Shown here: positions 36,842-48,285 of the stretch, piece after piece
Position numbering within the stretch: the stretch's first letter is position 1
How the letters are laid out: each line of letters starts with the position of its first letter
Assembly (NCBI RefSeq): GCF_002563675.1
Contig: NZ_PDJC01000001.1
Location: forward strand, 310,001 to 374,000
From: Propionicimonas paludicola
Lineage (GTDB): Bacteria > Actinomycetota > Actinomycetes > Propionibacteriales > Propionibacteriaceae
DNA: 64,000 bases
Reading direction: 5' to 3'
Notes under the pieces: generated by a model
Seen by the model: the letters and a program-made list of their open reading frames with translations, nothing else
Told to the model about the DNA's origin: nothing
Databases searched by the model: none
Program-made: the position numbers and the translations under genes

Positions 36842-36949
36842 CCGTCCCCACCACCCCGTTCCCCTCCGTCCCCACCACCCCGCTCCCGCTACCGAAGGGA
36901 ACTCCCGCTACCGAAGTTTCGGCAGCAAAGGTTGCGCTCGGTAGCGCGA
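36842..36949. repeat. Structured 108-bp intergenic repeat, copy A
   Basis: First of two 108-bp direct copies in the 524-bp gap between chorismate mutase and cysK; by eye 101 of 108 positions match copy B, 205 bp away. Each copy has CCGTCCCCACC runs, two direct CGCTACCGA units (36887-36895, 36906-36914) and an inverted TCGGTAGCG (36938-36946). The second CGCTACCGA and TCGGTAGCG form a 9-bp stem. No convincing protein is encoded in the gap; apart from these repeats, the aroQ -10 box and a hairpin near cysK I see nothing in it. Confidence 0.85.
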
Positions 36950-37046: not shown

Positions 37047-37154
37047 CCGTCCCCACCAAACCGTCCCCCTCCGTCCCCACCACCCCGTTCCCGCTACCGA
37101 AGGCAACTCCCGCTACCGATGTTTCGGCAGCAAAGGTTGCGATCGGTAGCGCGA
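37047..37154. repeat. Structured 108-bp intergenic repeat, copy B
   Basis: Second copy, same orientation. CGCTACCGA units are at 37092-37100 and 37111-37119, and TCGGTAGCG at 37143-37151. Relative to copy A, two of the four differences in the last 84 bp sit opposite each other next to the stem: T37120 and A37142 pair here, where copy A has A and C. This copy thus has a 10-bp stem. Confidence 0.85.
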
Positions 37155-37305: not shown

Positions 37306-38238
37306 TCAGTCGAGCAGGTCTGCATACAGCGGGGTGGACAGGTAGCGCTCGCCCCACGACGGGATGATCGCCACGATGGTCTTGCCCGCGTTGGCCGGAT
37401 CGTTGGCCAGCTCGGCGGCGGCACGCAGCGCGGCGCCGGAAGAGATGCCGACCAGCAGGCCCTCCTCCTTGGCGGCCCGGCGAGCCCAGTCCAGGGCGTC
37501 GTCCGAGGTCACCTTGATGATCTTGTCGATCAGCGACACGTCCAGGATCTCCGGGATGAAGCCAGGGGAGATGCCCTGGATCTTGTGCGGGCCCTTCGGC
37601 TCGCCGGAGAGGACGGCCGACTCGGCCGACTCGACCGCGACCAGCTGGACGCCCGGCTTGCGCTCCTTGAGCACCTGGCCGACGCCGGTGATGGTGCCGC
37701 CGGTGCCCACGCCGGAGACGAAGAAGTCGATGTTGCCCTCGGTGTCGGCCCAGATCTCCTCGGCCGTGGTCTTCTTGTGGATGGCCACATTGGCCGGGTT
37801 GGTGAACTGGCTGGCCAGGATCGCACCCGGGGTGTTCGCCACGATCTCCGCGGCGCGCGCGTTGGCACCGGGGACGCCCTCAGCGGCCGGGGTCAGCACC
37901 AGCTCGGCACCGAAGGCGCGCAGCAGAGCGCGGCGCTCCTTGGAGAAGGACTCCGGCAAGGTGATGATCACCTTGTAGCCACGGGCCGCGCCGACCCAGG
38001 CCAGGGCGATGCCGGTGTTCCCGGAGGTGCCCTCGACGATGGTCCCGCCCGGCTTGAGCGAGCCGTCGGCTTCAGCGGCGTCGATGATCGAGACCCCGAT
38101 CCGGTCCTTCACTGAGGCGGCCGGGTTGTAGTACTCCAGCTTGGCCAGCACGGTCGCCTTGCTGTCGCCGTAGAGGCGGTTGATCCGCACCAGCGGGGTA
38201 CGACCGATCAGCTGGGTCGCATCTTCGTAAATGGGCAT
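37306..38238 (-). CDS. cysK: Cysteine synthase A (O-acetylserine sulfhydrylase)
   Basis: The 310-residue PLP enzyme makes cysteine from O-acetylserine and sulfide. It has the PLP lysine Lys44 in [11 protein letters not shown], the substrate loop [20 protein letters not shown] (about 70-89), the phosphate-binding [10 protein letters not shown] and the C-terminal PLP serine region [15 protein letters not shown] 9 nt upstream fits ATG 38238. It is the third gene of the DUF4395-thioredoxin-cysK operon, which begins with a Cys-rich leader ORF, implying repression when cysteine is abundant. Confidence 0.96.
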
Positions 38239-38272
38239 CTGAGATATCTCCGGTTTCTTCTACTCGTTCAAC

Positions 38273-38695
38273 TCAGGCGGCCACAGCGCGGTCGACCTGT
38301 TGCAGTGCGTTCACTACTTCGGACTTGCGGGCGGCGCCGACGATCCGGTTACGGACCACGCCATCGGCGTCGAGGAGCAGGACGGTGGGCGTCCTGGTGA
38401 TGCCGAACTTCTCGACCAGGTCAAGACGCGTTTCGGCATTGAGGTCAATGTGCCGTACCCCTTCGGTGCCGGCCACAACCTCGGACAGCACGCGGTGGGT
38501 GGCTCGGCATGGGGCGCACACAGTGGATGAGAACTGGACGAAGGTGGCCTGGCTGCCCAACGGGGCACCCAGCGTGGCCTCATTCAGGCTCGGTGCCGTC
38601 CGCACCGTCTTGGCCCGGCCGTCGGTCAGCCGGCGGTAGCCGCCGAAGCCGAGGGCCAGCGCCAGCGCTGCGAGAGCGATCCACACACCAGTCAT
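38273..38695 (-). CDS. Membrane-anchored thioredoxin-like protein
   Basis: The 140-residue protein has one N-terminal membrane helix (about residues 3-20) and a thioredoxin fold with the redox motif CAPC (Cys60 and Cys63) in FSSTVCAPCRATHRVL, and the cis-Pro region GITRTPTVLLLDADG. Topology suggests the domain follows the helix; the side of the membrane is not certain. Its gene lies between DUF4395 and cysK, and thioredoxin-like plus DUF4395 pairs recur in actinobacterial sulfur operons. A role in reducing sulfur carriers or sulfurtransferases is inference. Confidence 0.87.
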   Translation of the reverse strand: MTGVWIALAALALALGFGGYRRLTDGRAKTVRTAPSLNEATLGAPLGSQATFVQFSSTVCAPCRATHRVLSEVVAGTEGVRHIDLNAETRLDLVEKFGITRTPTVLLLDADGVVRNRIVGAARKSEVVNALQQVDRAVAA

Positions 38696-38703
38696 GATCC
38701 CGC

Positions 38704-39183
38704 TCAGCTCGCTGCGCCGGTAGCCGGCTTGTTGAACAGGCGCTTGCCAAGCAGGTAGACCTCGCAGCCGAGGCAGAAGTCGAAGATGGCGTTGAGGAGG
38801 GCGGCGACCAATGCGAAGCCGACTGCGATCCAGAACAGCAGGGCCACATTGAAGATCCAGCCGGCCAACCCGGCCAGGGCGAAGACCAGGCCGACGCCCT
38901 GGGCGAACCGCGGCGGCTCCGACGCCTCCAGCTCGGCGGGAGCGCCCAGCCGCGGCCGGACGAACTTGCGGTAGATCAGCCCCCAGGGCTGTGCCTGCAG
39001 GCCCAACAGCGAACCGGCCGCGAAGGCCAGGGTCTGCACCAGGAGGACGACCAGGCCGGCCACCGAGGTGGGGCCGAGGATCAGCACCACGATGAGCAAC
39101 ACCGAGGTGATCGCCGCGCCGAAGCGCGGCCCGCGCGGATCGATCAGCCCGGCGCTGGCCGGGGAGGGAACAGGATTGGACAT
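38704..39183 (-). CDS. DUF4395 membrane protein
   Basis: The 159-residue protein has four predicted membrane helices in two pairs (about 22-45, 45-65, 95-120, 115-140) and the family's conserved end DFCLGCEVYLLGKRLFN with two cysteines three residues apart. The CxxC pair facing the thioredoxin-like neighbour suggests redox or sulfur-carrier chemistry at the membrane; the function is not established. I start at ATG 39183; an in-frame GTG at 39240 would add 19 unconserved residues. It is the first full gene after the Cys-rich leader ORF. Confidence 0.85.
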   Translation of the reverse strand: MSNPVPSPASAGLIDPRGPRFGAAITSVLLIVVLILGPTSVAGLVVLLVQTLAFAAGSLLGLQAQPWGLIYRKFVRPRLGAPAELEASEPPRFAQGVGLVFALAGLAGWIFNVALLFWIAVGFALVAALLNAIFDFCLGCEVYLLGKRLFNKPATGAAS

Positions 39184-39297
39184 TACGTCTCGATTCGGGT
39201 CGGCGGGTGGGAGCTTTGGGGAGCTCGAACGGTTGGCCACGGTGGCATCGGCGGATCAGTCAACGCTCGTATCCACGGGTCAGGTGTCGTCCGGCAG

Positions 39298-39366
39298 TCA
39301 GCGGGGACAACACATTCGCGTCACCACGACGGCTCGACCTGAGCCAGTGTATCCACGCGCGAACAT
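39298..39366 (-). CDS. Cysteine-rich leaderless leader peptide (22 aa) of the DUF4395-thioredoxin-cysK operon
   Basis: ATG 39366 opens a 22-codon ORF ending RMCCPR then TGA. Two tandem cysteine codons lie near its end. TACCGT, a good actinobacterial -10, ends exactly 6 nt before the ATG and there is no ribosome site, so the transcript should begin at the ATG. Leaderless short ORFs with tandem cysteines before sulfur operons are described in mycobacteria as cysteine-responsive attenuators. Ribosome pausing at the Cys codons when Cys-tRNA is scarce would let the downstream genes be expressed. The function is inferred from this precedent. Confidence 0.8.
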   Translation of the reverse strand: MFARGYTGSGRAVVVTRMCCPR

Positions 39367-39372
39367 GTGACT

Positions 39373-39378
39373 ACGGTA
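39373..39378 (-). promoter_or_regulatory. -10 box of the DUF4395 operon leader ORF
   Basis: TACCGT on the minus strand, 6 nt before the leader ATG at 39366. No good -35 is seen. Confidence 0.65.
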
Positions 39379-39425
39379 GCACGCAGGTCCGTCTGTTCCC
39401 AGCCCGATCCGCAATTTCCGACCGG

Positions 39426-40649
39426 TCAGTGAGCCGACAGTGCCCGGTCCAGCCCGGCAGCCACATCGGCCACCAGGTCGGACGTCTCCTCAACACCCAG
39501 ACTCAGCCGCAGCATTCCGGCGGTGATCCCGGCCGCCTGCTGCGCTTCGGCTGACATTGCGGCGTGCGTCATCGTGGCCGGGAGCGACACCAGGGACTCG
39601 ACTCCGCCCAGGCTCTCGGCCAGGCAGAAGCACCGCAGCCCCTCGGCGAAGGCGTGAGCGGCGGACGCGTCGGCCAACTCGAAGGTGACGATGGCGCCGA
39701 AGCCGTCCATCTGGCGAGCGGCCAGTTCGTGTTGCGGGTGTTGCGGCAGGCCGGGGTAGTGGACGGCACGGACGGCCGGGTGCCCAGCCAGGAGCTCGGC
39801 CACCGCGGCCGCATTGCGCTGAGCGGCGGCCACTCGCAGGTGCAGTGTGCGCAACCCGCGCAGGGCCAGGTAGGAGTCGAAGGCCCCGGCCGGAACGCCC
39901 AGGGTGTTGGCCCACCAGGCCAGTTCGGCGCCGCGCTCGGCGTCCGCGCTGACCACCACGCCGGCGATCACATCGGAGTGTCCGTTGAGGTACTTGGTGG
40001 CCGAATGGACGACCACGTCCGCGCCGTGCTCGATCGGCCGCTGCAGGATCGGGCTGGCGAAGGTGTTGTCGGCCACCACCAGCGCCCCGGACGCGTGGGC
40101 GGCCCGGCTGAGCTGGTCGAGGTCGGCGATCCTCAGCAGCGGATTGGACGGGGTCTCCAACCAGACCAGGTCCGGGCCGGTGGCGATCGCGGCCAGGGCG
40201 GCCGCGGTGTCGCTGAAGTCGACGTAGTCAATGCGTCCGATGCGCCCGGTGCGGCGCAGCGCCTCGAAGAGTCGCCAGGTGCCGCCGTAGCAGTCGGACG
40301 GGGCCAGCAGGGTGCCGTTGGCCGGGAGGAGGCCCATCACGGTGGTGGTGATCGCGCCCATCCCGGAGGCGGTCACGCACCCGGTGGCGCCGCCTTCCAA
40401 GTCGGCCACGGCTTGGCCGAAGAGATCACGCGTGGGGTTGCCGGATCGCCCGTAGTCGTAGCGACCGGGCTGGCTCGGGTCGGTGAACTCGTAGGAGACC
40501 GACAGATGCACGGGAGCGACCACAGCGCCGAAGGCGGGATCGCTGGACAGGCCGGCCCGGACGGCGCGAGTGCTGGGGTGCAGGCCCGGAGCCGGCGGAC
40601 AGGAAGGGTCGGAGGAGGGGTTGTTCACTTCGGGCACCTGATCTGACAT
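39426..40649 (-). CDS. metB: Cystathionine gamma-synthase-type PLP enzyme
   Basis: A 407-residue Cys/Met-metabolism PLP enzyme with the family lysine Lys219 in VVHSATKYLNGHSDVIAG, the Tyr/Arg phosphate site RYDYGRSGNPTR (63-74) and the PLP-stacking SGMGAITT region. The N-terminal 25 residues are unconserved. MetB joins cysteine to an acylhomoserine; cystathionine gamma-lyase has the same fold, so the direction is inferred from metY next door. AGGAG is 15 nt from ATG 40649 but only 7 nt from a mini-ORF that overlaps this start; GTG 40628 is therefore a possible true start. Confidence 0.87.
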   Translation of the reverse strand: MSDQVPEVNNPSSDPSCPPAPGLHPSTRAVRAGLSSDPAFGAVVAPVHLSVSYEFTDPSQPGRYDYGRSGNPTRDLFGQAVADLEGGATGCVTASGMGAITTTVMGLLPANGTLLAPSDCYGGTWRLFEALRRTGRIGRIDYVDFSDTAAALAAIATGPDLVWLETPSNPLLRIADLDQLSRAAHASGALVVADNTFASPILQRPIEHGADVVVHSATKYLNGHSDVIAGVVVSADAERGAELAWWANTLGVPAGAFDSYLALRGLRTLHLRVAAAQRNAAAVAELLAGHPAVRAVHYPGLPQHPQHELAARQMDGFGAIVTFELADASAAHAFAEGLRCFCLAESLGGVESLVSLPATMTHAAMSAEAQQAAGITAGMLRLSLGVEETSDLVADVAAGLDRALSAH

Positions 40650-40657
40650 CGGCTCAT
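40625..40657 (-). CDS. Mini-ORF MSRCQIRCPK overlapping the metB start
   Basis: This 10-codon ORF has a better ribosome site (AGGAG, 7 nt spacing) than annotated metB. Its TGA overlaps a GTG of the metB frame (GTGA at 40628-40625), so reading the mini-ORF could deliver ribosomes to metB. It contains two Cys codons (4 and 8). Real translation is unproven. Confidence 0.45.
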   Translation of the reverse strand: MSRCQIRCPK

Positions 40658-40680
40658 TGCGGGACTCCTGTTAGTGGGAA

Positions 40681-40710
40681 GCCCGGGCCGCCGCAGTGGA
40701 CGGCCCGGGC
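40681..40710 (-). terminator. Hairpin between metY and metB
   Basis: GCCCGGGCCG (40681-40690) pairs perfectly with CGGCCCGGGC (40701-40710) around a 10-nt loop, 12 bp after the metY stop. It is either a partial terminator or an mRNA-protecting structure between the two genes. No T-run. Confidence 0.65.
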
Positions 40711-40722
40711 GAGGTCATTCGA

Positions 40723-42006
40723 TCAGAGCTGGGCGAGCGCCTGATCCAGGTCGGCGATCAGGTCATCGACATTCTCGATGCCGAGGCTGAGTCGCACCGC
40801 CTCCGGCGGCACCCCGGCTGCGGCGAGTTCCTCCTCGTTCAGCTGGGAGTGGGTGGTGGTGGCGTTGTGGATGGCCAGGCTCTTGGCGTCCCCGATGTTG
40901 GCCAGGTGGCTGAACAGGTTCAGGGCCTCGATGAACTTCGCACCGGCCGCGCGTCCGTCCTTCAGGCCGAAGGCGAGGATGCCGCCGTAGCCACGGCCGT
41001 TGAAGATACGGTCGGCGACCTGCTTGTAGGGCGAGGACTCCAGGCCCGGGTAGCTCACCCAGGACACCTTGTCGTGGCCTTCCAGGTACTTCGCCACGGC
41101 CAGCGCGTTGGCCGAGTGACGCTCGATTCGCAGGTGCAGGGTCTCCAGGCCCTGTAGGAACAGCCAGGCGTTGAACGGGCTGACCGCGGCACCGGTGTTG
41201 CGCAGCAGGACGGTGCGCGCCCGGATGATGTAGGCGGCCGGGCCGGCGGCGTCGGTCCAGACCACGCCGTGGTAGGCCGGGTCCGGCTTGGTCAGGCCGG
41301 GGAACCGGTCGGCGTGGGCGGCCCAGTCGAACTTGCCGGAGTCGACGATGATGCCGCCGACTGAGGTGCCGTGACCGCCGATGTACTTGGTAGCCGAGTG
41401 GACCACCACATCGACGCCGTGGTCGAAGGCCTTGGACAGGATCGGGGTCGGCACGGTGTGGTCGACGATGAACGGCAGACCGAGGGCATGCGCCGCCTCG
41501 CTCCAGGCGTCCAGGTCGACCACGTTGATGGCCGGGTTGCCGATGGTCTCGCCGAAGACCAGCTTGGTCTTGTCATCGACGTGCTGGGCCAGCTCCTCGG
41601 GCTTCTCCGGATCGACGAAGCGGGCCTCGATCCCGTACTGGGCCAAGGTGTGAGCGAACAGGGCGTAGGTGCCGCCGTACAGCGTCGACAGGGCGACGAT
41701 GTTGTCCCCGGCGTAGGTCAGGTTGAGCACGGCGTAGGTGATGGCGGCCGCACCGGACGCAGTGGCCAGCGCGCCGACGCCACCCTCCAGGGCGGTCAGT
41801 CGGGTCTCGAAGACCGACTGGGTCGGGTTCATGATCCGGGTGTAGATGTTGCCCGGCACCCGTAGTGCGAACAGGTCGGCGGCGTGCTCGGTGTCATCGA
41901 AGACGTAGCTGGTGGTCTGGTAGATCGGGACGGCGCGAGCGTTGGTGGCCGAGTCGGCCTCTTCCTGGCCGGCGTGAACCGCGAGGGTGTCGGGATGCAG
42001 GGACAT
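40723..42006 (-). CDS. metY: O-acetylhomoserine sulfhydrylase
   Basis: The 427-residue PLP enzyme has Lys207 in VVHSATKYIGGHGTSVGG, the phosphate site YTRIMNPTQSVFE (55-67), and the long form (about 430 residues, with the insertion DRFPGLTKPDPAYHGVVW) that separates MetY from MetB. It makes homocysteine from O-acetylhomoserine and sulfide. AGGAGA lies 3-4 nt before ATG 42006. It is preceded by a leaderless Cys/Met-rich ORF 134 nt upstream and followed by metB. Confidence 0.94.
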   Translation of the reverse strand: MSLHPDTLAVHAGQEEADSATNARAVPIYQTTSYVFDDTEHAADLFALRVPGNIYTRIMNPTQSVFETRLTALEGGVGALATASGAAAITYAVLNLTYAGDNIVALSTLYGGTYALFAHTLAQYGIEARFVDPEKPEELAQHVDDKTKLVFGETIGNPAINVVDLDAWSEAAHALGLPFIVDHTVPTPILSKAFDHGVDVVVHSATKYIGGHGTSVGGIIVDSGKFDWAAHADRFPGLTKPDPAYHGVVWTDAAGPAAYIIRARTVLLRNTGAAVSPFNAWLFLQGLETLHLRIERHSANALAVAKYLEGHDKVSWVSYPGLESSPYKQVADRIFNGRGYGGILAFGLKDGRAAGAKFIEALNLFSHLANIGDAKSLAIHNATTTHSQLNEEELAAAGVPPEAVRLSLGIENVDDLIADLDQALAQL

Positions 42007-42048
42007 TTCTCTCCTAGGTGGGCTGATACTGCTGAGTGCGTCTTGGCT

Positions 42049-42063
42049 GGCCCAGAACGGGCC
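42049..42063 (-). promoter_or_regulatory. Hairpin in the metY leader
   Basis: GGCCC-AGAAC-GGGCC between the Cys/Met-rich ORF and metY, with an outer GCCAG/CTGGC pairing possible. It may be one arm of an attenuation fold; a CTCTC upstream could also pair with the metY ribosome site. Confidence 0.4.
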
Positions 42064-42140
42064 GGGTGGGTTCGATGAGAGCCAGTGCGAGCGTGCGCAG
42101 CGGCGTCAGGAAATGGCGTTGGGTCGAGGTGAGGCTGGGG

Positions 42141-42212
42141 TCAGCACATTCGACAACGCGCCATCGACGGCATACAGCAGCAACCCATGGTCGCGGTGCT
42201 CGTCGAGGTCAT
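42141..42212 (-). CDS. Cysteine/methionine-rich leaderless leader peptide (23 aa) of the metY-metB operon
   Basis: ATG 42212 opens a 23-codon ORF. It encodes Cys-Cys-Cys at codons 11-13 and Cys at 20 and 23, plus Met at 1, 9, 14, 17 and 22: ten of 23 residues contain sulfur. TAGCGT ends 7 nt before the ATG with no ribosome site, so the mRNA should start at the ATG. This is the layout of cysteine-responsive attenuators in mycobacteria; the many Met codons suggest methionine may be sensed as well, which is my inference. The rest of the 349-bp gap to guaA holds promoters and the leader only. Confidence 0.8.
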   Translation of the reverse strand: MTSTSTATMGCCCMPSMARCRMC

Positions 42213-42219
42213 GGCTGGA

Positions 42220-42250
42220 ACGCTAGCAGGTGCGTCCACGTGGTGGTCAA
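42220..42250 (-). promoter_or_regulatory. Promoter of the metY leader
   Basis: TAGCGT (42225-42220) is the -10, 7 nt before the leader ATG. TTGACC (42250-42245) suits a -35 but with 19-bp spacing, 1-2 bp long. Confidence 0.6.
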
Positions 42251-42342
42251 GGAGTCTCAGCGCTGTTGCGTATTCACCCGGGTCCGGACGTCCACTCGGC
42301 TCACCGGCGGACGCTGAGCGAGCCGGAACGGCCGCTCAGCCC

Positions 42343-42348
42343 TAGACT
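42343..42348 (+). promoter_or_regulatory. -10 box of leaderless guaA
   Basis: TAGACT, 7 nt before ATG 42356. No ribosome site precedes the ATG. Confidence 0.7.
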
Positions 42349-42355
42349 GCGGCCC

Positions 42356-43909
42356 ATGAGTCCTGACCACGATCTGGTGTTGGTCGTCGACTACGGAGCC
42401 CAGTACGCCCAGCTGATCGCCCGCCGGGTGCGCGAGGCTCGGGTCTACTCCGAAATCGTGCCGCACACCATGCCGGTTACCGAGCTGCTGGCCAAGCAGC
42501 CTTCGGCCGTCATCCTCTCCGGTGGCCCCAGCTCGGTCTACGAGCCCGGTGCTCCGCAGCTGGACGTCGCCCTCCTCGAAGCCGGGGTGCCGGTGTTCGG
42601 CATCTGCTACGGCTTCATGGCCATGGCCCAGGCGCTCGGCGGACGCGTGGCCCGCACCGGCCAGCGCGAGTACGGACGTACCCGAGTGGAGATCACCGAT
42701 CCCGGTCGGCTGCTCGAGGGCCTGCCGCCGGTGCTCACCTCGTGGATGTCCCACGGCGATGAGGTCACTGCGGCGCCGTCCGGCTTCCGGGTGAACGCGC
42801 GCTCACCGCGAGCCACCGTGGCCGCCTTCGAAGACCCGGCGCGCCGGCTGGCCGGCGTCCAGTGGCACCCCGAGGTGCTGCACTCCGAGCACGGCCAGCA
42901 GGTACTGGAGCGCTTCCTGATCGAGATCGCCGGCTGTCGGCCGACCTGGACCTCGGCGAACATCGTCGAGGAGCAGGTCGAGCGGATCCGCGCCGAGGTG
43001 GGGGACGCCCGGGTTCTGTGCGCGTTGTCCGGCGGCGTCGACTCGGCGGTGGCCGCCGCCTTGGTGCAGCGAGCCATCGGCGATCAGCTCACCTGTGTCT
43101 TCGTCGATCACGGCCTGCTGCGTACCGGCGAGGCCGAACGAGTCGAGCGGGACTTCGTGGCCTCGACCGGCGTCAAGCTGGTGGTGGCCGACGAGGAGAA
43201 GCGCTTCCTGGACGCGCTGGCCGGAGTCAGTGACCCGGAGACCAAGCGCAAGATCATCGGACGCGAGTTCATCCGCACCTTCGAGGACGCGGCCCGCCGG
43301 ATCAACGCCGACGGCCCGATCGACTACCTGGTGCAGGGCACGCTCTACCCCGACGTCGTCGAGTCCGGCGGCGGCGAGGGTGCCTCGACCATCAAGAGCC
43401 ACCACAACGTGGGCGGCCTGCCCGATGACCTGCAGTTCACCCTGATCGAACCGCTGCGCACCCTGTTCAAAGACGAGGTCCGCCAGGTCGGACGTCAGCT
43501 GGGTCTGCCCGAGCACATCGTCAACCGGCACCCGTTCCCCGGCCCCGGCCTGGGCATTCGGATCGTGGGGGCCGTGGACGCCGAGCGGTTGCGGATCCTG
43601 CGGGCCGCCGACCTGATCGTCCGCGAGGAGACGACGGCGGCCGGGCTGGACAGCTCCATCTGGCAGTTCCCGGTGGTGTTGCTGGCCGATGTTCACTCGG
43701 TCGGCGTGCAGGGTGACGGCCGTAGCTACGGGCATCCGATCGTGCTGCGTCCGGTGTCCAGCGAGGACGCCATGACCGCCGACTGGAGCCGGCTGCCTTA
43801 TGAGGTGCTGGAGAAGATGTCGACCCGGATCACCAACGAGGTCCCCGAGGTGAACCGCGTCGTCCTCGACGTGACCAGCAAGCCGCCGGGCACCATCGAG
43901 TGGGAGTGA
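42356..43909 (+). CDS. guaA: GMP synthase (glutamine-hydrolysing)
   Basis: The 517-residue enzyme converts XMP to GMP using glutamine and ATP. It has the class I amidotransferase triad Cys84 (GICYGF), His171 and Glu173 ([10 protein letters not shown]), the PP-loop SGGVDS (225-230), and the C-terminal dimer domain ending KPPGTIEWE. The frame is open well upstream, but ATG 42356 lies 7 nt after TAGACT and starts the conserved region, so a leaderless start is chosen. It completes the guanine pathway begun by guaB at 19-20 kb. Confidence 0.97.
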
Positions 43910-43927
43910 ACCTCCCCTAGAGACGCC

Positions 43928-43975
43928 AGTGGGGCGTCGTCTGCTTCCACCGGACGACGCCCCACTGACCTTTTT
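43928..43975. terminator. Strong terminator after guaA
   Basis: AGTGGGGCGTCGTC (43928-43941) pairs perfectly with GACGACGCCCCACT (43953-43966), 14 bp, followed by GACCTTTTT. It also closes the convergent PspC gene. Confidence 0.92.
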
Positions 43976-44241
43976 CAGCGCAGGTCAGACGGCGGCTGGT
44001 TGGAGCCGTTGCTGCTGAACGCGCGCTTGACCTCGTCCAGTCCGGTGCTGCCACCGTCGATCGGGAGGACCAGCCACAGGACCAGGTAGACCGCGATCGG
44101 GAAGAAGAAGAACACGCTGGTCAGGGCCCACACCACCCGAACCAGAGTCGAGTCGATCCCGAAGGACCGGGCGACGCCGCCGCACACACCGGCGATCATC
44201 TTGTCTGCCGCAGAGCGGGTGAGTTGCTGCTTCATTTTCAT
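43975..44241 (-). CDS. Small PspC-domain membrane protein
   Basis: The 88-residue protein is a single PspC domain: LTRSAADKMIAGVCGGVARSFGIDSTLVRVVWALTSVFFFFPIAVYLVLWLVLPI, with a re-entrant amphipathic part and one membrane helix (about 32-57), then a short polar tail. PspC proteins sense or relay envelope stress in phage-shock-type systems. AAAGGA lies 3 nt before ATG 44241 and 9 nt before an in-frame ATG at 44235; either may be used. It is the last gene of a minus-strand PspC cluster. Confidence 0.88.
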   Translation of the reverse strand: MKMKQQLTRSAADKMIAGVCGGVARSFGIDSTLVRVVWALTSVFFFFPIAVYLVLWLVLPIDGGSTGLDEVKRAFSSNGSNQPPSDLR

Positions 44242-44258
44242 GTTTCCTTTCGTGAAAC

Positions 44259-44432
44259 TCAGTGATGTTGGCGCGAGAGCAGGACCATTCCTGCTCCGAT
44301 GACGATCAGGGCGACCGGGGCGGCGGTTCGGACGAACCCCCAGTCGACGTGGCCGAAGCTCGACCACAGGCCGATCCCGCCGAGCAGGATCGCGGCAAGT
44401 CCGAAGCCGAAGGCCGCACGATCTCGGTTCAC
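44259..44432 (-). CDS. Small two-helix membrane protein (57 aa)
   Basis: GTG 44432 opens a 57-codon ORF overlapping the stop of the PspC gene at 44429 (GTGA), so it is probably co-translated. It encodes two hydrophobic segments (about residues 6-24 and 36-52) separated by a short loop FGHVDWGFV, ending in LLSRQHH. The hydrophobic pattern and tight coupling argue that it is real. It resembles the small LiaI-like (LiaF transmembrane) helical pairs found next to PspC proteins, but I do not recognise it firmly. Confidence 0.65.
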   Translation of the reverse strand: MNRDRAAFGFGLAAILLGGIGLWSSFGHVDWGFVRTAAPVALIVIGAGMVLLSRQHH

Positions 44433-45643
44433 TGGACCACCTTCACTTCTCCGACGCCGACCTTCAGGTTGATGGTCAGGGTGGGTGCATCGGCCGGCGC
44501 ATCGGTGCCCAGCGAGCCGCTGATTCCGGCTCCACTGATGGAGGGCGACCCGGGATCGCTGTACTCGCCTGCTCCGACGCTCCAGACCAGCTGGCTGCGG
44601 ACGTTCTTCGGCAGGACCAGGTCCACCTGGCCGGCCCCGACGTCGATGGTCACGGACTTGTCCTCGGCCAGGCTGAGCTTGCTGAAGTCGAGCCGAACAT
44701 CGCCGGCGGAGTACTGGATCTGGCCGGGGATCTGAGCTCCGGTGGTGTAGCTGTCGCTGAAGCTACCCACCTTGCCCGGATGGACCGGGAACAGGAGCGA
44801 GGTGGTCGCGATGGCTGCGATCAGAGTTGCCGGCAGCAGTAGCGGCGGACGGCGCCGCCGAGACGAGATCACCAGGCCGACCCCGAACCCGGTCAGCACG
44901 GCCGCCACGTAGGGCAGCGGGCCGACACCGCCGAATGCGGCGACCAGGCCGACTCCGAGCGCGGCCAGCGCGAGCGCCGGCAGCCAGCCGGACCAGCGTC
45001 CACGCGGACGGCGCGGATGACTACGCACCTCGGGAGCCGGGTTGTCAGTGACCACCAGGTCGCGGGGTTGATTGGTGTAGGGCTGCTCCCAGCGCTGCTC
45101 GAACGCGGCCGGTTGGGCCGGGGGCATCGCCGTGGTGGCCGAGGGCAGGAGACCCGGGTTCTCGAAGCCGGGGGTCTGCTGTTCGGCCAGCCGCACTCGC
45201 CAGGCGTCCGACGCCCGCTCGAACGGGGTGGGCTCGGCCGGGCGGTGGCCGGAGGCTCCGGGCTGGCGCTTGCGGAAGCCGAAGAACCAGATGGCGAAGA
45301 TGATCAGGGCCGGTCCGATGCCCACTCCGCTGAAGCCGCCGGCATACAGCAGGACGGCCGAGACGGCGAAGACGGCGACCACGACCCCCGCCATCGGCCA
45401 GCTCCGGGTGAACGGCAGCCAGCGCTGCACGGGCATCACCTGCTGGCCATCCTTCGGCATCAGCGCGATCCCGGCCAGGTAGGCGACGATGCCCAGTCCA
45501 CCGAGGAAGATCGCCGCGAGTACGGCAGCCACCCGCACCACGGTGGGGTCGACACCCAAGCGGCGAGCCACGCCGGCGCAGACGCCGGCCAGCATCTTGG
45601 TGTCGGCCGGCCGGGTGATCAGCACGGGCAGGTTGTCTGGCAT
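44429..45643 (-). CDS. PspC-domain protein with C-terminal toast-rack-like domain
   Basis: The 404-residue protein has an N-terminal PspC domain (LITRPADTKMLAGVCAGVARRLGVDPTVVRV, helix to about 60), a second helix pair (about 80-125), a long polar linker, another helix cluster (about 210-290), and a C-terminal beta-rich extracytoplasmic domain (about 300-404; VTIDVGAGQVDLVLPKNVRSQLVWSVGAG) of the LiaF/toast-rack type. This suits an envelope-stress component acting with the PspC-kinase at 50378. ATG 45643 is chosen at the conserved start; upstream sequence is unconserved. Confidence 0.85.
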   Translation of the reverse strand: MPDNLPVLITRPADTKMLAGVCAGVARRLGVDPTVVRVAAVLAAIFLGGLGIVAYLAGIALMPKDGQQVMPVQRWLPFTRSWPMAGVVVAVFAVSAVLLYAGGFSGVGIGPALIIFAIWFFGFRKRQPGASGHRPAEPTPFERASDAWRVRLAEQQTPGFENPGLLPSATTAMPPAQPAAFEQRWEQPYTNQPRDLVVTDNPAPEVRSHPRRPRGRWSGWLPALALAALGVGLVAAFGGVGPLPYVAAVLTGFGVGLVISSRRRRPPLLLPATLIAAIATTSLLFPVHPGKVGSFSDSYTTGAQIPGQIQYSAGDVRLDFSKLSLAEDKSVTIDVGAGQVDLVLPKNVRSQLVWSVGAGEYSDPGSPSISGAGISGSLGTDAPADAPTLTINLKVGVGEVKVVQ

Positions 45644-45678
45644 GCCTCTATTCAACTTTGGACGGGTCGAACGGACCA

Positions 45679-45694
45679 TCGGGGTTGACCCCGA
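45679..45694. promoter_or_regulatory. Inverted repeat upstream of the PspC gene
   Basis: TCGGGGT-TG-ACCCCGA, a perfect 7-bp inverted repeat 36-51 nt upstream of ATG 45643. Its position suits an operator for the PspC cluster. It lies in the 311-bp gap before the sugar operon, which otherwise holds only that operon's promoter and operator. Confidence 0.45.
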
Positions 45695-45832
45695 GCGGCC
45701 CCGTGATCCCCGCAGACGGATCCGTCGGTTCCCCTGAGCCGGACCGTCGGGGATGCCCCTTTCGGCTAGCGAGCCGCAAGATAACCATGTGATAACGAAT
45801 CGCCGGAATCGGAGAGTTCGCGGCTCTTCCAC

Positions 45833-45862
45833 TTGACCATGAGAGCGTTTGCGGTCTTGAAT
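45833..45862 (+). promoter_or_regulatory. Candidate promoter of the cellobiose-type operon
   Basis: TTGACC (45833-45838) and TTGAAT (45857-45862) with 18-bp spacing. The -10 is weak. A LacI-type operator lies 12 bp downstream. Confidence 0.45.
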
Positions 45863-45873
45863 GGGCGAAGGCC

Positions 45874-45887
45874 TAAGAGCGCTCTCA
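45874..45887. promoter_or_regulatory. CebR-type operator upstream of the sugar operon
   Basis: TAAGAGCGCTCTCA contains the perfect palindrome AGAGCGCTCT (45876-45885) and closely resembles the known CebR box TGGGAGCGCTCCCA of Streptomyces cellobiose genes. A related GAGAGCGTTT lies at 45841-45850 and may be a second, weaker site. Confidence 0.75.
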
Positions 45888-45954
45888 GCGCCATGGCCTG
45901 TCACCTATGCATGATCCGCGGGCACCGGGCCCGCAGACTGACGAAGGAGTCCAC

Positions 45955-47271
45955 ATGCGTTCATCCCTGTTGCGAGGAGCGGCGGTCACCGCTGGCCTGG
46001 CGCTGTTGCTGGTCGGGTGCTCGGGCCCGGCGGCTACGCCGTCGGCCAGTGCCCCGGCGTCACCCTCCGCCAGCGCTCCCAGTGAAGAGAAGGTCACTCT
46101 CACTGTCGCGACCTTCAACGAGTTCGGCTACGAAGATCTGTTCGCGGAGTACACCAAGGCTCACCCGAACGTCACCATCACCCCGAAGAAGGCCGCAACC
46201 TCCAACGAGGCTCGCGAGAACTACTTCAACAAGCTGGCTGCCGGCTCCGGTCTGTCCGACATCGAGGCCATCGAGGTCGACTGGCTGCCCGACGTCATGC
46301 AGACCGCTGACAAGCTGTACGACCTCTCCGGCGACGACGTCAAGGGCCGCTGGCTGGACTGGAAGGAAGCCGCTGGCACCGCTCCGGACGGCAAGCTGGT
46401 CGCCTACGGCACTGACATCGGCCCCGAGGGCGTCTGCTACCGCGCCGACCTGTTCAAGAAGGCCGGTCTGCCGACCGACCGCGCAGAGGTCGCCAAGGCT
46501 CTGGGCAGCACCTGGGATGACTACTTCGCGCTGGGCAAGAAGTTCGTTGCCAAGTCCAACGGCGTGGCCTGGTTCGACTCCGCTGACGCGATCATGCAGG
46601 GCCAGATCAACCAGCTGAAGAACGCTTTCTCCTCCACCGAGCCCGAGGAAACCCTCATCCCGCTGGGTGACAACGCTCCGGTCAAGGCTCAGTACGACTC
46701 CATCCTGAAGGCCGCCGTCGACGACAAGCTGTCGGCGCACCTGCAGCAGTGGCAGCCGGACTGGGTGGACGCCTTCCAGAAGGGCAAGTTCGCCACCATG
46801 CTCTGCCCGGGCTGGATGCTCGGTGTCATCGAGGGCAACGCCAAGGGCATCGAGGGCTGGGACATCGCCAACACCTTCCCCGGTGGCGGCGGCAACTGGG
46901 GCGGCTCGTACCTGACCGTTCCGGCGCAGGGTGCGCACACCAAGGAAGCTCGCGACCTGGCTGCGTGGCTGACCGCTCCCGAGCAGCAGATCAAGGCCTT
47001 CAAGGCCAAGGGCACCTTCCCGAGCCAGAAGCAGGCTCTGACCAGCCCCGATCTGCTGAGCGTCACCAATAAGTTCTTCAACAACGCTCCGACCGGCCAG
47101 ATCCTGGCTGACCGGGCGAACGCGGTCCCGTTCAACCCGTTCAAGGGCCCGCAGTACTTCGCAGTACGCCAGGTGATTGCTGATGCGATCAACCGGGTCG
47201 ACGTGACCAAGAAGCAGAATGCTGCTGATTCTTGGGCGCAGGCCATCAAGGAGTTCAACGCTCTCGGCTGA
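45955..47271 (+). CDS. Solute-binding lipoprotein, cellobiose/oligosaccharide ABC importer (CebE-like)
   Basis: The 438-residue protein has a lipoprotein signal (GLALLLVGCSG, lipobox LVGC, Cys about residue 22), a Ser/Pro/Ala linker and a type 1 sugar-binding fold (VATFNEFGYEDLFAEYTKAHPNVTI; IEVDWLPDVMQTADKLYDL; YGTDIGPEGVCYRADLFKKAGL). The IGPEG and TPE-like loop regions resemble beta-glucoside/CebE-type binding proteins. GAAGGAG 7 nt before ATG 45955 decides the start. It heads an operon with two permeases and a LacI regulator under a CebR-like operator. Cellobiose is the likely but unproven ligand. Confidence 0.9.
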   Translation: MRSSLLRGAAVTAGLALLLVGCSGPAATPSASAPASPSASAPSEEKVTLTVATFNEFGYEDLFAEYTKAHPNVTITPKKAATSNEARENYFNKLAAGSGLSDIEAIEVDWLPDVMQTADKLYDLSGDDVKGRWLDWKEAAGTAPDGKLVAYGTDIGPEGVCYRADLFKKAGLPTDRAEVAKALGSTWDDYFALGKKFVAKSNGVAWFDSADAIMQGQINQLKNAFSSTEPEETLIPLGDNAPVKAQYDSILKAAVDDKLSAHLQQWQPDWVDAFQKGKFATMLCPGWMLGVIEGNAKGIEGWDIANTFPGGGGNWGGSYLTVPAQGAHTKEARDLAAWLTAPEQQIKAFKAKGTFPSQKQALTSPDLLSVTNKFFNNAPTGQILADRANAVPFNPFKGPQYFAVRQVIADAINRVDVTKKQNAADSWAQAIKEFNALG

Positions 47272-47287
47272 GCTGATTCCTTCTAGC

Positions 47288-47325
47288 CTTGTGGGCAGGG
47301 CGGTCAATCCCGTCCTGCCCACAAG
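47288..47325 (+). terminator. Intercistronic hairpin after the binding-protein gene
   Basis: CTTGTGGGCAGG (47288-47299) pairs perfectly with CCTGCCCACAAG (47314-47325) in the gap before the first permease. Same position and presumed role as the hairpin at 24917-24959: unequal expression of binding protein and permeases. Confidence 0.7.
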
Positions 47326-47349
47326 TCCGACCCGAGAGGACTTACACAC

Positions 47350-48285
47350 ATGACCTGGCGCCAGCGCCTGAGCCGGTGGGACGTCAAGAGCGCTCCCTAC
47401 CTGTACATCGCACCGTTCTTCCTGCTTTTCGCTCTGGTGGGCCTGTTCCCGCTGCTCTACACCGGCTGGGTGGCCCTGAACAAATGGAGCCTGGTCAAGG
47501 GAAATCAAGGCTTCATCGGCCTCGCGAACTTCCAGTACGTGTTGGCGCAGCCCCGCTTCTGGGACGGCGTGACCAACACCTTCTCGATCTTCCTGCTCTC
47601 CTCGGTACCGCAGATCTTTCTGGCGATCGGAATCGCCGCGGTGCTGAACGCCAACCTGCGCGCCAAGACCTTCTGGCGGATGGGCGTCCTGGTGCCCTAC
47701 GTGGTGGCACCGGTGGCCGTCTCGCTGGTCTTCGGCAAGCTCTTCGCCGACGAGTCCGGCGTGGTCAACGCCATCCTCACCAACATCGGCCTGGATCCGA
47801 TCGGCTGGCACTCGAACCGGTTCTGGTCGCATGTGGCGATCGCCACCATGGTCAACTTCCGGTGGACCGGCTACAACACTTTGATCTTCCTGGCCGCCAT
47901 GCAGGCCATCCCGAACGACGTCATCGAGGCGTCCATCGTGGACGGCGCCAACCGCTGGCAGAGCTTCTTCTCGGTCACGGTCCCGATGTTGCGCCCGACC
48001 ATCATCTTCGTGGTGATCACCTCAACCATCGGTGGCCTGCAGATCTTCGATGAGCCACGGTTGTTCGACAACTTCTCTCTCGGTGGGCCGGATCGGGAGT
48101 GGATGACAGTCACGATGTATCTCTATGAGCTCGGCTGGAACGTCCAGAAGAACCTGGGGAGATCCGCCGCAGTCGCCTGGCTGTTGTTCCTGATCATCGT
48201 GATCTTCGCGCTGATCAACTACGCCATCACTCGCCGGATCGCCAGCAGCGACACCCGCCCGAACCGAAAGGCGCTGGTCAAATGA
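47350..48285 (+). CDS. Sugar ABC transporter permease (CebF/MalF type)
   Basis: The 311-residue permease has six membrane helices and an EAA loop (DVIEASIVDGANRWQSFFSVTVPMLRPT, about residues 194-221). It overlaps the next permease by ATGA. GAGAGGA lies about 9 nt before ATG 47350. An ATPase is not encoded in the operon. Confidence 0.92.
   Translation: MTWRQRLSRWDVKSAPYLYIAPFFLLFALVGLFPLLYTGWVALNKWSLVKGNQGFIGLANFQYVLAQPRFWDGVTNTFSIFLLSSVPQIFLAIGIAAVLNANLRAKTFWRMGVLVPYVVAPVAVSLVFGKLFADESGVVNAILTNIGLDPIGWHSNRFWSHVAIATMVNFRWTGYNTLIFLAAMQAIPNDVIEASIVDGANRWQSFFSVTVPMLRPTIIFVVITSTIGGLQIFDEPRLFDNFSLGGPDREWMTVTMYLYELGWNVQKNLGRSAAVAWLLFLIIVIFALINYAITRRIASSDTRPNRKALVK

Follow-up and report, generated by a model that had tools for sequence, protein, structure and literature searches.

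A short ORF rich in cysteine and methionine ahead of metY

The window, by which we mean the whole stretch of 64,000 nucleotides analysed here, contains a 23-codon ORF in front of the sulfhydrylase gene metY in which ten residues are either cysteine or methionine. The question that this locus raises is whether such an ORF serves as a sensor and, if so, whether it would read cysteine, methionine or both, as the initial annotation suggested. The most probable answer, to which we give a probability of roughly three in four, is that the leader ORF is the sensing element of a translation attenuator that responds to cysteine and controls the metY operon, a reading based on genome comparison and modelled RNA folds. 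The features of the locus, listed from the promoter side, are as follows.

42245–42250, minus strand, −35 element TTGACC, 19 nt before the TAGCGT box
42220–42225, minus strand, −10 element TAGCGT at leaderless-type spacing, 7 nt ahead of the leader ATG
42141–42212, minus strand, leader ORF MTSTSTATMGCCCMPSMARCRMC, 23 codons plus TGA
42011–42015, minus strand, Shine-Dalgarno (SD) sequence AGGAG of metY, from sequence
40723–42006, minus strand, metY, O-acetylhomoserine/O-acetylserine sulfhydrylase (TIGR01326, score 628.2 bits, cut-off 495.1)
39426–40649, minus strand, metB, cystathionine gamma-synthase (TIGR02080, score 507.2, cut-off 504.55)
38704–39240, minus strand, DUF4395 protein (PF14340)
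38273–38695, minus strand, thioredoxin-like protein (PF00085)
37306–38238, minus strand, cysK, cysteine synthase A (TIGR01139, score 429.9, cut-off 350.95)

The ten sulfur residues out of 23, Cys-Cys-Cys run included, and the TAGCGT box 7 nt ahead of the ATG (42225–42220, minus strand) are both as the initial annotation described them, and the strand, which it did not give, is the minus strand. Five of the residues are Cys (codons 11, 12, 13, 20, and 23) and five are Met (codons 1, 9, 14, 17, and 22). The frame stays open further upstream, giving 32 codons if read from the GTG at 42239, but the spacing of the box and the conservation favour the ATG at 42212 as the start. Among the 302 ATG ORFs of 12–40 codons in the window, a content of at least 10 Cys plus Met in 23 residues, or a CCC run, was seen only in the leader and its own nested inner ATG, and the combination of CCC with a TANNNT box in the leader alone. 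Eight shuffled windows gave no ORF with the Cys plus Met share of the leader, one with CCC in total and none with CCC and box. Conservation (see below) is stronger evidence for the leader ORF than these chance counts, and the genome-wide frequency of TGYTGYTGY (463 matches, compared to 380 for the reversed control pattern) is uninformative. No family match was obtained for the peptide in NCBIfam (four leaders) or Pfam (the window's leader), and Rfam gave no match at gathering score in 38000–48000, hence no SAM riboswitch match at the locus.

A TANNNT box lies 6–7 nt before the leader ATG in all 16 rows of the locus alignment, and TTGACC is kept in 13 of them, being TTGCCA in L027 and L030 and neither of the two in L004. 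A sigma-70 consensus scan of 41900–42400 returned no promoter, its spacing limit of 16–18 nt excluding the 19 nt found here. On the other side, a divergent gene (42356–43909, plus strand), whose product we take to resemble GMP synthase, begins some 140 nt away from the leader ATG, which would place both promoters in one short intergenic region.

The operon had been described as metY-metB. Both genes are indeed present, but the row is longer, metY-metB-DUF4395-thioredoxin-cysK, all on the minus strand and possibly on a single transcript. In the genus, cysK is found behind metY in 14 of the 16 assessable leader-bearing metY operons, immediately after it in 12, and closing the same five-gene row in two (the window and G028). 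In G025 and G022 cysK sits on a different contig from metY, in G009 the cysK match adjoining metY is partial, reaching the contig end, and G007, cut by a contig end, stands outside this count. Just downstream of the window's cysK there are two direct repeats of 108 nt (36842–36949 and 37047–37154), 94% identical and 205 nt apart.

Distribution and codon conservation of the leader

A search of 30 genomes of the genus with the leader profile A1 recovered the leader ahead of metY in 17 (E ≤ 3.1e-9) and a relative ahead of cysK in two more (G014 and G016, E 4.6e-4 and 1.1e-3), with no convincing copy in the other 11. Duplicate loci within one genome were excluded, the second copy of G002 (L127) is not counted in the 17, and four loci were left out, three for want of a start codon (L014, L054, and L096) and one with too short an upstream region (L065). 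One further locus (L112) is counted in the codon table and absent from the 16-locus folds described below. All 17 metY leaders have exactly 23 codons.

The initial annotation asked whether the Cys and Met codons would be conserved in related genomes, and the outcome differs between the two. Every metY leader has at least three Cys within codons 10–13 (Cys10 in 15 of 17, Cys11 in 17, Cys12 in 14, and Cys13 in 15), and Cys20 is present in 16. Among the Met codons, Met17 is found in all 17 leaders and Met22 in 15, but Met9 is kept in only 13 (Leu in the other four) and Met14 in six, being otherwise Leu, Ala, or Val. The lack of Met conservation that the initial annotation named as refuting its proposal is therefore seen for only half of these codons. 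Ser16 and Arg21 are invariant. Both profile-matching cysK leaders (MFKTAVASVCCCAMPSAACCRMR and MFSTARIPMCCCGLPSAGCCRTF) retain the Cys run, have Cys19-Cys20 and carry Ala at position 17; Met14 and Met22 are present in one of them and Met9 in the other. It follows from the codon tables of both kinds of leader that cysteine is the common theme and that methionine is shared in part only.

Ser16-Met17 falls within nine nucleotides that are constant in the 17 metY leaders, synonymous site included, which points to a constraint on the RNA or on the peptide. A candidate hairpin inside the leader, between codons 2–4 and 15–17, is able to pair in 96.8% of the cells of the alignment, and since no pair changes on both sides it is neither supported nor refuted as the explanation.

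Other short ORFs behind a TANNNT box precede metY in four genomes that lack the leader: MFSTRATCRCLGVPSMTR (L095), MSHQDCLCFARCGVTLMCLRMR (L109), MNLVAVGRCCPGTPTLRDKTR (L097), and MILMSKPESC (L094). The first of these is a degenerate leader with the Cys run broken and TCGACG plus CCGTCGATG retained, a pattern that may reflect a function of the Pro-Ser-Met codons at the RNA or peptide level. Short ORFs of this type before metY in L055, L062, and L109 end in SCRMR, CCRML, or CLRMR, resembling the CRMC/CCRMR ends of the leader. In G021 (L005) metY-cysK is present with no short ORF behind a TANNNT box, and in G017 another ORF, MITMRFATMCCCRASMACPAC (L150), precedes a second cysK.

In a MetY comparison (best 80 of 532 loci), the window is placed near Propionibacteriaceae records, several of them named Propionicimonas, the MetY of LUYM01000006 being 99% identical. 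At the family level, profile A3, which itself includes both cysK leaders, matched 38 of 198 genomes at E ≤ 0.05; the strong matches (E ≤ 2.1e-8) come from just 19 genomes, all in the genus, and the remaining 19 have E values of 0.01–0.05. Inspection of 11 of the 19 weak-match loci (L204–L214) led to no accepted leader: nine had no TANNNT box before the start and no sulfur gene recognised by eye, L213 has a stop codon inside, and L206, of odd length, was left unread.

Predicted pairing of the Cys codons with the metY ribosome-binding site

The codons that would do the sensing are also predicted to form one strand of a long-range helix in front of metY, made up of the following two segments.

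42175–42186, minus strand, Cys-codon tract GGGTTGCTGCTG, 5′ strand of the predicted helix
42020–42034, minus strand, CAGCAG-TAT-CAGCCC, the partner (3′) strand, which stops 4 nt short of the SD AGGAG

In the window a helix with GGGTTGCTGCTG as strong as this one appeared in 2 of 500 shuffles. Across 16 loci, in which the stretch between leader and metY start (112 to 150 nt long and poorly alignable) was shuffled as control, codons 9–14 have a mean of 9.54 expected paired nucleotides with the −40 to +3 region of metY, compared to 1.87 (sd 0.75) in the shuffles, none of 60 reaching the real value. This is the pairing peak of the leader, codons 1–6 giving 1.0 vs. 0.89 (27 of 60 shuffles) and codons 15–20 giving 2.37 vs. 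1.86 (16 of 60). Taken singly, nine of the 16 loci reach ≤1 of 60 shuffles, and in five (L001, which is the sister of the window, L089, L010, L101, and L103) no pair exceeds a probability of 0.3. At the other end, L027 and L030 have sixteen consecutive predicted pairs, and in L002 and L087 the predicted pairs extend over the SD and the start codon. At the variable leader letters 28, 36, 39, 40, and 41 the facing nucleotides change correspondingly; for example, at codon 10 the window has GGT opposite a C, in the place of a T-A pair in L009. The sister L001 shares this GGT and lacks the C.

Other measures of the same pairing give a more mixed picture. Plain duplex energy compared to shuffled tails reached p ≤ 0.02 in only three of the 16 loci (p 0.21 in the window), and the whole-fold pairing with shuffles was adopted after this result was known. 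The 16 leader-bearing metY ribosome-binding site (RBS) segments bind the fixed Cys tract TGTTGCTGCTGC better than 75 segments without leader (−14.4 vs. −9.4 kcal/mol, p 1.6e-5), a comparison that ignores the kinship of the loci and in which the leader-bearing segments also have the higher A content (0.33 vs. 0.24). Eight of the 75 leader-less segments match the window's own segment in their binding to the window's tract, and the cognate partner is often not the best binder of the Cys tract.

A stalled ribosome as the proposed switch

The mechanism that we propose runs as follows. Transcription would probably start at the leader AUG. With plentiful Cys-tRNA, a ribosome translating the leader would pass the Cys codons, terminate at the UGA and leave, and the free Cys-codon tract could then pair with its proposed helix partner, the segment CAGCAGTATCAGCCC, just upstream of the metY SD (over the SD in some relatives), resulting in poor translation of metY, with termination by Rho, in the C-rich stretch left untranslated, as a possible sequel. 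When Cys-tRNA becomes scarce the ribosome would stall at codons 11–13 and cover the tract, and with the helix blocked metY and the genes down to cysK would be expressed.

We modelled this step by placing a ribosome footprint on each leader codon of the 16 loci and computing how open the metY RBS becomes. The mean openness is 0.49 for the free RNA, 0.59–0.60 with the ribosome at codons 9–13, and 0.48–0.50 at codons 20–24, and for the window the corresponding change is from 0.52 to 0.64–0.70 at codons 6–17, with 0.52 again from codon 19 onward. The RBS opens upon modelled stalling in eight of the 16 loci; in this footprint model it is unchanged in L004, L027, L030, L089, and L101, drops slightly in L009 (0.72 to 0.65), and drops at some codons in L001 and L103.

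Cysteine sensing is well supported by the conjunction of a conserved Cys run, a likewise conserved leaderless-type box, cysK in the operon, and the predicted pairing with the RBS. The attenuator reading is weakened by the five loci of 16 without the helix, by the weak single-locus tests, and by the 11 of 30 genomes without leader.

Alternative readings of the leader

Not all of the alternatives exclude a translational attenuator. The one that survives best, although we consider it rather unlikely, is that cysteine-responsive stalling or release in the leader determines whether transcription terminates, through Rho or intrinsically, or continues into metY, a control that could also operate jointly with the translational version. 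The sequence that follows the leader, rich in C and poor in G, would suit Rho, its C-over-G skew being 0.19–0.41 (mean 0.34) in all 16 loci, compared to an average of 0.02 (sd 0.13) for the −140 to −20 region of metY genes without leader, a control that may reach into the neighbouring gene. Rho was moreover proposed for cys leaders in the sections of a 2005 study that treat them (PMC1262725). Behind the two profile-matching cysK leaders (L128 in G014 and L129 in G016) there are terminator-like hairpins followed by 7 and 6 T, so that the genus may also contain a version acting on transcription. However, a simple scan found no terminator-like site at 41900–42400 of the window, the L128 hairpin is hardly affected by the modelled ribosome (0.92 vs. 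0.96), and the L129 hairpin is predicted to be weaker only with the ribosome at codons 18–21, which include Cys19-Cys20, and at codons 6–7.

Less probable still is a dual sensor, in which Cys and Met codons would both stall the ribosome and shortage of either amino acid would derepress the operon. The conservation of Met17 and Met22 speaks for it, as does the window's fold, where modelled stalls at codons 9, 14, and 17 open the RBS as much as those at 11–13. The replacement of Met17 by Ala in both profile-matching cysK leaders is also what one would expect if Met matters only for metY, although the cysK-associated L150 retains Ser-Met. SAM-I and SAM-IV riboswitches were not found among the candidates scored in the genome (150 of the 207 first-look candidates for SAM-I and 150 of the 1615 for SAM-IV). 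Against the dual sensor, Met14 and Met9 are poorly kept, codon 22 is beyond reach in the window's model (a stall there opens nothing), and the 16-locus average at codon 17 is 0.52, with 0.49 for the free RNA and 0.60 at codon 11. The constancy of Met17 may also owe to the RNA or peptide constraint on its nine nucleotides. The original proposal of a leader measuring both amino acids thus keeps its cysteine half, well supported within the limits of these models, and its methionine half is weak; a cysteine sensor suffices, with methionine sensing as a possible but improbable addition.

That the leader is instead a small functional Cys-rich protein is highly improbable, since for all its conservation (four to six Cys, with Ser16 and Arg21 invariant) some leaders have Arg, Gly, Ile, or Asn in place of Cys 10, 12, 13, 19, or 23 as the run persists, the peptide has no family match, 19 genomes (E ≤ 1.2e-3) carry it ahead of metY or cysK, and its codons pair with the RBS region in the folds.

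Significance and comparison with known systems

The cysteine-responsive translation attenuator, if it operates as proposed, would extend cysteine-codon attenuation to a non-mycobacterial lineage and to direct sulfhydrylation. Its mechanism is a readable one, as the sensor codons themselves would be one strand of the blocking helix, and the cysK relatives with a terminator-like hairpin would make translational and transcriptional versions comparable. Were the dual reading true, a single leader peptide would integrate cysteine and methionine shortage for an operon that serves both, and the conserved Met codons allow a clean test of this. The initial annotation knew of no dual Cys/Met attenuator, and the literature agrees insofar as no Cys/Met or Met leader attenuator appears among the matches listed; polycysteine leaderless attenuators are, however, described.

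In the classical trp, his, and ilv attenuators the sensor is a ribosome that stalls at codons for the end product, and the same kind of sensing is proposed here. Unlike them, the window has no intrinsic terminator before metY (41900–42400). Polycysteine-encoding leaderless short ORFs of mycobacteria were reportedly studied by Canestrari and co-workers in 2020. Three later papers, in the passages that mention that work, credit it with cysteine-responsive regulation by such ORFs (PMC13236596, PMC9094748, and PMC9031893), and one of them describes translation attenuation in which the ORF pairs with downstream sequence, the SD being hidden until a stalled ribosome disrupts the pairing (PMC13236596, same passages). 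Mycobacterial leaderless upstream ORFs rich in Cys are also reported in a further paper (PMC4633059). The sections on cysteine leaders in the 2005 study (PMC1262725) predicted peptides with Cys runs ahead of the cys operons in Mycobacterium and Propionibacterium acnes and ahead of cbs in Bifidobacterium longum; conserved terminators were absent, and Rho was suggested.

The window's leader resembles those 2005 predictions in being a short ORF with a Cys run and no conserved terminator. It differs from them in having a predicted pairing partner at the RBS; in the sections concerned the run lies near the stop codon and metY goes unmentioned. With the mycobacterial polycysteine ORFs it shares contiguous Cys codons (CCC in the window) in a short ORF, whose transcript may here likewise begin at the AUG, sulfur genes downstream (here metY to cysK), and a predicted structure at the RBS whose formation would be prevented by a ribosome on the Cys tract. 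In contrast to them, it belongs to the Propionibacteriaceae and to a metY to cysK operon, and its run stands in the middle of the ORF, followed by a conserved tail (PSM..CRM) and extra Met codons. Overall, we regard it as a probable cysteine-responsive leader of the polycysteine, leaderless type that is, as far as our searches go, new in this lineage and at this operon, and that, going by the folding models, most likely acts on translation, its sensor codons blocking the RBS region by base-pairing.
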